Virus record (IMG/VR): IMGVR_UViG_3300021959_000308
Span: 1-27,627 of that record
DNA: 27,627 bases
Reading direction: 5' to 3' (one strand)
DNA from: a virus
The notes under the pieces were generated by a model, which was not told where the DNA came from, made no database searches, and saw only the letters and a program-made list of their open reading frames with translations. Each line of letters opens with the position of its first letter. Within the stretch, counting starts at the first letter, position 1. Positions 256-25,015 of this stretch are shown piece after piece. Both the position numbers and the translations under genes were made by a program.

Positions 256-346
256 GAACTTATGTTCTATGTATGTTCTATTTGCAGCTGTTCTACATTT
301 GTTCTATAATATATTTGTTCTACCTTTGTTCCAGGATAGAAGGTTC
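256..346. promoter_or_regulatory. tandem GTTC-N7-GTTC operator array (LexA/SOS-box-like)
   Basis: GTTC occurs at 264-267, 275-278, 290-293, 301-304, 317-320 and 328-331. Within each pair the spacing is exactly 7 bases (264/275, 290/301, 317/328), and the pairs are 11 and 12 bases apart. A seventh GTTC at 343-346 follows after 11 more bases. A GAAC at 256-259 forms GAAC-N4-GTTC with the first repeat. GTTC-N7-GTTC is the known direct-repeat LexA box of alphaproteobacteria. Three phased copies point to cooperative binding by host LexA or a phage regulator of similar specificity. The repeats are seen directly; the identity of the binder is inference. Confidence 0.6.
282..310 (+). promoter_or_regulatory. 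candidate sigma70-type promoter inside the GTTC array
   Basis: A perfect -10 hexamer TATAAT lies at 305-310, with a weak -35 TTGCAG at 282-287 and a 17-base spacer. GTTC copies lie just upstream of the -35, within the spacer (290-293), directly against the -10 (301-304) and near the predicted start at about 317. A protein bound to the array would therefore block polymerase. Transcription would run rightward to the terminase and head genes with a leader of roughly 245 bases. The -35 matches only half the consensus, and TATAAT is easy to find in AT-rich DNA. Confidence 0.4.
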
Positions 347-526: not shown

Positions 527-555
527 TTGACATATGGTGATTAGTTATTTATATG
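527..555 (+). promoter_or_regulatory. candidate promoter giving a leaderless small-terminase transcript
   Basis: A consensus -35 TTGACA (527-532) is followed after 17 bases by TATATG (550-555). The expected transcription start falls at about 562, beside the ATG at 563. No Shine-Dalgarno-like sequence precedes that ATG, which fits a leaderless message. The -10 matches four of six consensus bases, so the call is moderate. Confidence 0.45.
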
Positions 556-562
556 TTGTTGT

Positions 563-949
563 ATGACTGTAGCAATTAAAGGTGGTAGACCTAAGTTTGA
601 ACTAAATGAAGAGAACAGGCATCAAGTAGAGTTGGCTGTTGGGTTTGGATTAAATCAGGCACAGATAGCTAAGTTAATGAATTGTGATGTTACTACCCTC
701 AGGAAATATTTTAGGCATGAGTTAGATGCTGGTAAAGAGAAGTTGGTAATGTCTATTGGTAGCCAGTTGTATAAGAAAGCTATGAAGGGTGATACTATCT
801 CGGCAATATTTTTAGCTAAGACAAAGGCAGGTTTTAGAGAAACTGTAGAGCATGAAGGATTACCTAATAATATAACAGTAAGTTTTAATTTAGATGATAA
901 GAAACCGATTGAAGCTGAAGTAGTAAAGGAGAAACTAACGCATGGCTAG
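563..949 (+). CDS. terminase small subunit-like DNA-binding protein
   Basis: This 128-residue protein has an N-terminal helix-turn-helix-like segment (about residues 20-51, around LNQAQIAKLM and VTTLRKYF). It is followed by the AMKGDTISAIFLAKTKAGF stretch (about 72-91), a pattern typical of phage small terminase or packaging-associated DNA-binding proteins. Small terminases recognise phage DNA and load the large subunit. The position at the head of the late block, one small-gene cluster before the large terminase, agrees. No ribosome binding site precedes the ATG, and a promoter-like sequence sits directly in front, suggesting leaderless translation. The end overlaps the next start at 942. 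The family is recognised by pattern only. Confidence 0.7.
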   Translation: MTVAIKGGRPKFELNEENRHQVELAVGFGLNQAQIAKLMNCDVTTLRKYFRHELDAGKEKLVMSIGSQLYKKAMKGDTISAIFLAKTKAGFRETVEHEGLPNNITVSFNLDDKKPIEAEVVKEKLTHG

Positions 950-1632: not shown

Positions 1633-2967
1633 ATGCACATAACCATTCCTTACACACCCAGACCACAACAAGCAGACTTACATAAAAATGATAAACGATT
1701 TAAGATTTGTGTATCACACAGACGTTGGGGTAAATCTGTGTATGCTATAACAGAAATATTACGTAAAGCATTAGAAATAAAAACAGAAAGAAAAGATGGT
1801 AGATACGCATACATTGCTCCGTACTACCGACAGGCAAAAGCTGTGGCTTGGGATTATTTATTATATTATACAAAAAATATTCCTGGTACTAAAGTAAACC
1901 AATCCGAACTACGAGTAGATTTAATTAATGGTAGTCGTATACGATTGTATGGTGCAGGAGATGACCCAGATGCCTTGAGAGGAATTTTCTTAGATGGTTG
2001 TGTTATGGATGAGTATGCAGATATGTCTCCTAGAATGTGGTCAGAAGTTATAAGACCTGCATTAACCGATAGAAAAGGGTGGGCAATATTTATTGGTACA
2101 CCAAAAGGTAGAAATCAATTCTGGCAATTATATGAAGATGCTAAACATGAACCTGATTGGCATAGAGCTATCTATCGTGCAAGTGAAACAGGAGTAGTAG
2201 ACCCTGTAGAATTAGAAGCTGCAAAAAAACAAATGGGTGAAGATGAGTTTATGCAAGAATTTGAGTGTTCATGGGCAGCTGCTATTAAAGGCTCATACTA
2301 TGGTAATTTAATTATAGAAGCAGAACAAGAAGGACGAATTACAAAAGTAGAAAGAGACCCTAGCTTACCTGTTCATGTAGCATGGGATTTAGGAATATCT
2401 GATAGTTGTGCTTTATGGTTTTTTCAAGTTACTATGGGCGAGATAAGAATATTTGATTATTATGAAAGTGCAGGAGTTGGATTAGACCACTATGTAAAAG
2501 TAATGGATGAGATGCAAATAGAATACTGGGGTGATGATTACTTGCCACATGATGCTAAAGTACGAGAACTAGGTACAGGTAGAACTAGAGCAGAAACTTT
2601 AATCAATATGGGTAGACGACCTCGTATCGTACCAAACCATAAAGTTGATGATGGAATCAATGCTGTAAGATTATTGTTGCAAAATTGTTATTTTGATGTT
2701 AAGAGATGTGAAAATGGTATTAATGCTTTGAGAAATTATCAAAGAGAATGGGATGATGTTAAAAGAGTATTCAAAAGAAACCCTTTACACAATTGGGCAT
2801 CACATGGTAGTGATAGTTTTAGGTATTTAGCTATGTCTTATAAAAATATAAAACCAAAAGAAAAAGAACCAGATATTATGAAAGAATTACTGCGTACTCC
2901 AACACTAGATGAAATGATGGATATACACGACAGAGAACAACTTAGAAAACCAGAAAAAAGGATATAA
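1633..2967 (+). CDS. terL: terminase large subunit
   Basis: This 444-residue protein is the ATPase-nuclease motor that pumps DNA into the prohead. The ATPase part has a Walker A-type motif SHRRWGKS (residues 28-35), a Walker B GCVMDE (122-127) and the coupling motif IGTPKG (154-159). The EFMQEFECSW stretch (205-214) links to the nuclease part. Candidate metal-binding acids of the RNase H-like nuclease are D252 in AWDLGISD, D307 in LPHDAK and D394 in HGSDSFRY. The length is usual for short-tailed phages. The start follows the previous stop by one base. Confidence in the family is high; the headful or cohesive-end packaging mode cannot be told. Confidence 0.95.
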   Translation: MHITIPYTPRPQQADLHKNDKRFKICVSHRRWGKSVYAITEILRKALEIKTERKDGRYAYIAPYYRQAKAVAWDYLLYYTKNIPGTKVNQSELRVDLINGSRIRLYGAGDDPDALRGIFLDGCVMDEYADMSPRMWSEVIRPALTDRKGWAIFIGTPKGRNQFWQLYEDAKHEPDWHRAIYRASETGVVDPVELEAAKKQMGEDEFMQEFECSWAAAIKGSYYGNLIIEAEQEGRITKVERDPSLPVHVAWDLGISDSCALWFFQVTMGEIRIFDYYESAGVGLDHYVKVMDEMQIEYWGDDYLPHDAKVRELGTGRTRAETLINMGRRPRIVPNHKVDDGINAVRLLLQNCYFDVKRCENGINALRNYQREWDDVKRVFKRNPLHNWASHGSDSFRYLAMSYKNIKPKEKEPDIMKELLRTPTLDEMMDIHDREQLRKPEKRI

Positions 2968-24063: not shown

Positions 24064-24227
24064 TATTTTTTCTCCTTTACTTCTTTTCTAGTTACATAAT
24101 AATCGTTTTCTTCTACTGTTCTTAAAACAAAACCTTTAGCTAATAAATTCCATAACTTATCTTGTACTTCAAATTTAGTAGGTCTAGTCTTAAACTCCAT
24201 TTTATAATTTATAATATACTTACTCAT
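24063..24227 (-). CDS. unknown small protein, 54 residues
   Basis: The frame starts in an ATGA overlap with the PAPS-reductase-like gene and ends sharing bases with the next gene's GTG (TAGTG), so it is translated within the operon. The product begins MSKYIINYKMEFKTRPTKFE and contains VQDKLWNLLAKGFVLRTVEE and YYVTRKE. It is predicted to be a small alpha/beta protein with basic character. I do not recognise it; winged-helix-like folds would fit the size but this is a guess. Confidence 0.7.
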   Translation of the reverse strand: MSKYIINYKMEFKTRPTKFEVQDKLWNLLAKGFVLRTVEENDYYVTRKEVKEKK

Positions 24228-25015
24228 ACTCCACACATCCCTTCATCACATATATCATTAAACATATCCATTTGGTCTTTGTTAGGGTCTAAATCAGCTT
24301 CTTCTAAAGGCACATAAGATTTGTGTAAAAATACTTCATCTTCTGGTTTTCTAGTAGCATTTCTAATTTTTCTATCTACCTCTACTACTTCTTTCCACAT
24401 TTCTTTATCATTGTTTTTAATATCTAACCAAAAATCATTTGAATGATAAGGACAAAAAGTACAGGCAGATTTTTTAGGTAATGGGTGATTATGATTTTTC
24501 AACCATTCCATGCAATCACCTCTATTAAATTTCTTATCAAATACTAAAGGATAATCATTTTTAATATAAGGTAATCTACTTTCTTTACATCTTACCATTT
24601 CATCTCTGGATATACCTATAACCATTTCTATCATTGTACCTTTTGGTACTCTTTGGTATTTTTTTAAACCTAATAACCTTCTTATTTTCTGATAAATAGG
24701 TTGTATTTTATATTCATTAGTGCATTGACGCATAGTAAAACCTTTCTTACCTGTTTTACTATTAATGGTATATGTAGGTATTGCTAAAAATTTATATTTA
24801 CTAGATAACATATCTTCTTTTAAATTACCTTTAGATACAATATGCACAGGATAAGAAACTCTATTTTTTAAATATTGTAACCAATCGTACACGTATTTAG
24901 GTTCATTCTGAGTGTCAGCGAATATTGCACAATCGACCATGGGTAATTCGCCATACTCAATCATTAATGCTACTGTGCTGCTTTGTACTCCTGCACCTAA
25001 AGATAATACTCTCAT
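24224..25015 (-). CDS. PAPS-reductase-like PP-loop ATP pyrophosphatase protein
   Basis: This 263-residue protein begins MRVLSLGAGVQSSTVALMIE; the LGAGVQSST (6-14) is a PP-loop that binds and adenylates with ATP. AIFADTQNEP (30-39) follows as in N-type ATP pyrophosphatases. Cys positions are C98 in RQCTNE, C185/C188 in CTFCPYHS and a terminal GMCGV (C261), which suggests a metal or Fe-S site. Phage homologues are annotated as PAPS reductase. Its true reaction is probably not sulfate assimilation, since neighbouring genes are for replication; nucleic-acid sulfur or base modification is a reasonable alternative. The exact substrate is unknown. Confidence 0.8.
   Translation of the reverse strand: MRVLSLGAGVQSSTVALMIEYGELPMVDCAIFADTQNEPKYVYDWLQYLKNRVSYPVHIVSKGNLKEDMLSSKYKFLAIPTYTINSKTGKKGFTMRQCTNEYKIQPIYQKIRRLLGLKKYQRVPKGTMIEMVIGISRDEMVRCKESRLPYIKNDYPLVFDKKFNRGDCMEWLKNHNHPLPKKSACTFCPYHSNDFWLDIKNNDKEMWKEVVEVDRKIRNATRKPEDEVFLHKSYVPLEEADLDPNKDQMDMFNDICDEGMCGV

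Follow-up and report, generated by a model that had tools for sequence, protein, structure and literature searches.

Clusters of GTTC-N7-GTTC boxes upstream of the terminase genes in a group of marine phages as candidate host LexA sites

Gene organization and GTTC repeats of the locus

The window analyzed here is the whole 27,627-nucleotide stretch of viral record IMGVR_UViG_3300021959_000308. Its rightward packaging/structural operon begins with the terminase small subunit gene (terS, positions 563–949, plus strand) and continues with the gene for the terminase large subunit (TerL, 1633–2967, plus strand), whose nearest named relatives are found in Pelagibacter phages (46–47%), followed by portal, major head protein and tail genes. 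The portal protein has its closest counterparts in phages infecting Myxococcus, Bradyrhizobium, Rhizobium and others, and the phage also encodes a GTA-type holin. Early genes, including one for a primase/helicase, occupy the opposite end of the contig, where they point leftward on the minus strand; a phosphoadenosine phosphosulfate reductase-like gene (24224–25015, minus strand) is located among the leftward genes. In two related contigs, G006 (33.8 kb) and G011 (32.9 kb), leftward early/replication genes, an intergenic region and rightward packaging genes follow one another, and the first bases of G011 are repeated near its contig end. A SET-domain protein is encoded in G006 (L361, 4938–5237, minus strand) as well as in G011. 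No integrase, CI-type repressor or LexA could be identified among the annotated early genes of the near-complete G006, which include many small genes without a known family. A phage-encoded LexA was also rejected for the window record, which contains no LexA_DNA_bind match. The window phage is apparently virulent.

Upstream of terS, GTTC occurs at positions 264, 275, 290, 301, 317, 328 and 343. The first six copies form three exact GTTC-N7-GTTC boxes on the plus strand, namely box 1 (GTTCTATGTATGTTC, 264–278), box 2 (GTTCTACATTTGTTC, 290–304) and box 3 (GTTCTACCTTTGTTC, 317–331), separated by 11 and 12 bases exactly as an earlier, sequence-only reading of this DNA had described. The position and spacing of box 1 and the spacing of boxes 2 and 3 are kept in relatives. 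The seventh copy, an extra GTTC half-site (343–346, plus strand) also pointed out in that reading, is variable or absent in some relatives, is kept as AAGGTTCATT in relatives lacking the array as well, and probably lies outside any box.

The clustering had been called far from chance expectation, and this is borne out by two types of null model. When both strands of the whole 27.6-kb window were scanned, GTTC-N7-GTTC matched just three times (264, 290 and 317), while dinucleotide shuffles of the window yielded a mean of 0.42 boxes and never reached three (0 of 100). Under a first-order Markov null for the 562-bp upstream region, the probability of at least one box was 0.003, and neither two or more boxes nor seven GTTC copies within 83 bp were obtained in 20,000 trials (0/20,000 each). 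The one feature that would favor a chance or coding origin of the repeats is a 70-codon open reading frame (252–464) that spans the array in the window. L013, L014 and L017, among other contigs, do not keep this frame, and the GTTC copies fall in different frames. With the spacing conserved and the null models giving the counts above, chance and coding repeats were both rejected as the source of the array, and we assign this explanation a negligible probability.

Conservation of the array and its surrounding promoters

Comparison with related phages had been proposed as a check of the repeat spacing, and in at least 13 related contigs (L003, L008, L009, L011–L020) the region upstream of terS indeed contains all three boxes, the GTTC-to-GTTC distances being fixed at 11, 15, 11, 16 and 11. 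Across 11 distinct array sequences, none of the 24 GTTC columns varies, compared with 19 of the 44 other columns; since the arrays were chosen by their GTTC pattern, more weight rests on the contrast seen in spacing and flanks. Within the 1 kb preceding terS in related loci, a spacing of 7 was seen 58 times and other spacings 0–23 times, the next commonest ones, 11 and 12, being the between-box gaps within one array. Downstream of terS, a spacing of 7 was found 0 times. All boxes of the window group (45/45) fit the motif TGTTCTnnnTnTGTTCY.

Most relatives carry a fourth box about 119 bp upstream of the array, which is located on the opposite strand in L019 and L020, while L005 and L006, which lack a triple array, have two boxes on the opposite strand. 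In L008, a 132-codon gene that has a perfect TTGACA-N17-TATAAT promoter of its own lies between the array and terS and places the two further apart. An exact box was looked for in G015, L007 and L021, which encode nearly the same terminase, and none was found; the array is therefore not essential. L021 contains a degenerate 11-bp GTTC/GTTT series on the minus strand (about −421 to −384 relative to terS), possibly representing a decayed box array. G015 (L369, L370), which has a TerL identical to that of the window and lacks the array, carries its early module in the opposite orientation relative to terS when compared with G006 and G011.

The sequence-only reading further held that the boxes cover a promoter-like TTGCAG-N17-TATAAT in front of the late genes. 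This sequence is present in the window as described (282–287 and 305–310), but its two halves fare differently in relatives. The segment between boxes 2 and 3, TATAATATATTT (305–316), which includes the TATAAT at 305–310, is nearly invariant, with one change (in L018), whereas TTGCAG, the candidate −35 element (282–287, plus strand), is found only in the window, L003, L008, L016 and L183. For the internal TATAAT, each of the two possible −35 elements is weak in the majority of relatives. In contrast to the equally long but variable gap separating boxes 1 and 2, TATAATATATT in the gap from box 2 to box 3 hardly varies, a pattern suggestive of a −10 element that LexA controls. Positions 305–316 thus likely contain a −10 element, and we consider a working promoter within the array reasonably probable.

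Two further promoter-like sites flank the array. A conserved, box-free TTGACA-N17-TATATG promoter (527–555, plus strand) is located directly upstream of terS and approximately 200 bp downstream of the array. On the other side, about 400 bp from the array, there is a conserved TTTACA/TATACT-like site in front of the first leftward gene. The array overlaps neither of them and probably controls a third promoter situated between the two. The earlier proposal that the boxes directly block transcription toward the late genes does not agree with the terS operon having a conserved box-free promoter of its own. The data do not support direct LexA control of every structural gene; since the late operon possesses this separate promoter, LexA would govern no more than a portion of late transcription.

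Among noncoding stretches upstream of terS, the strongest conservation is seen in a different element, the block CGGATGTGGGGTGGTACTGGTGCTAATCTAAAGGCATAT (384–422). It is kept in array-lacking relatives, with its middle diverged in L027, and a search against Rfam returned no match to a known RNA element. It is possible that this block represents a packaging or origin signal.

LexA boxes of Alphaproteobacteria and the probable host

GTTCN7GTTC is the published LexA motif of Caulobacter (PMC12700426). In lexA promoters from 62 sampled alphaproteobacterial genomes, GTTC-N7-GTTC was present in 50 and any other spacing in at most 2, so that the box named in the sequence-only reading, and not another one, was recovered at the class level. 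All SAR11 lexA genes found (24/24) carry GTTCTAYAAAAGTTC just upstream. Ten SAR11 genomes show recurring boxes before umuD (GTTCTTGTTTTGTTC) and before nrdA (GTTCTATAAATGTTC and variants), with nrdB next where seen, and no exact box adjoins SAR11 recA. The predicted SAR11 LexA regulon is therefore small, comprising lexA, umuDC and nrdAB (loci L491–L514 and L637–L650). In G207, an alphaproteobacterium with 28% GC, boxes precede lexA, recA, umuD and nrdA, all of them fitting the phage motif, and mraZ is possibly preceded by such a box as well; gene names in these comparisons are a reading of translated starts, except for lexA and SAR11 recA. The G207 lexA box, GTTCTATATATGTTC, is identical to boxes in L009, L013 and L018.

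The phage boxes share the architecture of the alphaproteobacterial LexA regulon known from Caulobacter (PMC12700426), and low-GC members of the class also share their flanking preferences. T follows the first GTTC in all 45 of 45 phage boxes and in nearly all lexA boxes, compared with 52 of 248 in other phage arrays. Each of the host SOS genes examined has a single box, whereas the phages carry three or four at fixed spacing. With spacing, half-site and flanks all matching boxes from host genomes, the earlier identification of the repeats as alphaproteobacterial LexA boxes finds support. The assignment of the array to alphaproteobacterial host LexA is supported by these motif comparisons, and its binding by host LexA would be quite likely.

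The host of this marine phage probably belongs to the Alphaproteobacteria. None of 397 Pelagibacterales genomes and none of 162 genomes of the order of G207, an order represented by fewer genomes than SAR11, contains a portal homologue; across the class, such homologues were detected in 10 of 385 sampled genomes at 28–42% identity. A search for exact core DNA in genome contigs revealed no prophage or host link. The k-mer composition of the phage is near those of SAR11 and G207, a weak method that does not firmly separate the two. The SAR11 strain HTCC1062 has an intact SOS system with recA, lexA and umuDC, and recA, lexA, umuDC and nrdAB are upregulated during infection by pelagiphage HTVC027P (PMC12753301). 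Among named pelagiphages, HTVC010P, Lederberg and HTVC203P contain no box, HTVC027P (first 50 kb) contains one box and no array, and Baldr contains two scattered boxes; the boxes are thus ruled out as a general pelagiphage trait.

GTTC arrays also exist in other viruses. Unrelated viral contigs (L134, L143, L148, L225, L162, L164, L157, L173, L185, L188, L190, L216 and L220) carry 3 to 14 GTTC direct repeats each, frequently at intervals of exactly 11 bp; GTTCAcgTTTT flanks predominate, and several of the arrays lie close to terminase genes. The GTTCA-flank type TTTGTTCACNTTTTGTTC occurs in 4 of 289 alphaproteobacterial genomes, and the GTTCA arrays of other phages may answer to a different protein. 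They were set apart from the window array by their flank and were not counted as support; likewise, raw counts from a triple-box scan of viral contigs were left out of the evidence, being lower bounds, as were those of its N8 control owing to coding repeats.

Possible functions of the array

We hypothesize that the array is a cluster of host LexA sites acting as an SOS-responsive operator for a promoter inside the divergent early/late region, a reading we regard as fairly probable. With the leftward early/replication genes on one side and the rightward packaging/structural genes on the other, the cluster would bind one LexA dimer per GTTC-N7-GTTC, and three dimers would flank and cover the conserved TATAAT, thereby silencing the promoter. 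Infection or DNA damage would lead, via RecA on single-stranded DNA, to LexA self-cleavage; the promoter would then open and part of the phage program would be tied to the SOS state. We see about an even chance that the array promoter is indeed SOS-induced. More tentatively, a multi-box LexA operator could serve as an SOS-triggered switch or timer within the lytic cycle and not in prophage induction, with phage replication itself generating single-stranded DNA, engaging RecA and causing LexA cleavage so as to open a second wave of transcription.

The main rival to the operator reading is LexA titration, because nrdAB belongs to the predicted host regulon. Here, the array would regulate no phage gene; instead, the 3–4 boxes per genome would act as decoys that titrate LexA as phage DNA multiplies, derepressing host nrdAB, umuDC and lexA and yielding more dNTP. 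The location of the array away from both conserved phage promoters, the conserved LexA box at SAR11 nrdAB and at G207 nrdA, and the joint rise of nrdAB, recA, lexA and umuDC in HTVC027P infection (PMC12753301) would all agree with such a function. A decoy, however, would have no need for fixed 11/12-bp gaps or an invariant TATAATATATT, and HTVC027P, from which the rise in SOS genes is known, carries no array. We consider titration unlikely. The repeats could also be the operator of a phage-encoded regulator that uses GTTC direct repeats 11 bp apart, as suggested by the unrelated viral contigs with 11-bp GTTC arrays, whose GTTCA flank is rare in alphaproteobacterial genomes. This appears improbable, given that the window group shows GTTCT like host SOS genes, unlike the GTTCA arrays, and that HTH_39, the sole recognizable DNA-binding protein found in relatives, is encoded in array-lacking G015 as well. 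Finally, the repeats might be iterons or belong to an origin or packaging site to which a replication or terminase protein binds. Their location in a divergent intergenic region beside terS and the conserved GGATGTGGGG block would fit this, but relatives sharing this block and having nearly identical terminases do not carry the repeats, and the repeats occur on either strand, which makes this explanation very improbable.

Control of phages by host LexA is already known, and the general idea is not new. In the Bacillus thuringiensis phage GIL01, host LexA acts together with gp7 on the SOS boxes of promoter P1 (PMC4551915, PMC6182141), and further phages using host LexA are cited in PMC9437464. 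The window group resembles GIL01 in having several boxes of the host SOS repressor type in a phage regulatory region; transcription tied to damage belongs to GIL01 and is proposed here. In contrast to GIL01, which is temperate and relies on a Gram-positive LexA box and a phage co-repressor, the window group has no lysogeny genes that could be found and uses the alphaproteobacterial direct repeat. A second parallel is provided by the clusters of CtrA sites in alphaproteobacterial phages, discussed in terms of "lytic deferment" (PMC9437464). In both cases, dense direct-repeat N7 motifs of a host global regulator occupy a divergent intergenic gap of alphaproteobacterial phages; however, the CtrA clusters consist of TTAA-N7-TTAA and relate to cell cycle and motility, whereas the window array carries the LexA motif and would relate to DNA damage. 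The literature searched contained no description of LexA-box clusters in phages of this type, which is not proof of their absence.

The analysis yields a predicted SAR11 LexA regulon (lexA, umuDC and nrdAB) together with a sharp DNA motif. Host-LexA control is known from temperate phages. If the operator reading is true, a conserved module of three to four boxes in phages without recognizable lysogeny genes would mean that lytic phages can also read the damage state of their host, which would be relevant to UV-exposed surface water.
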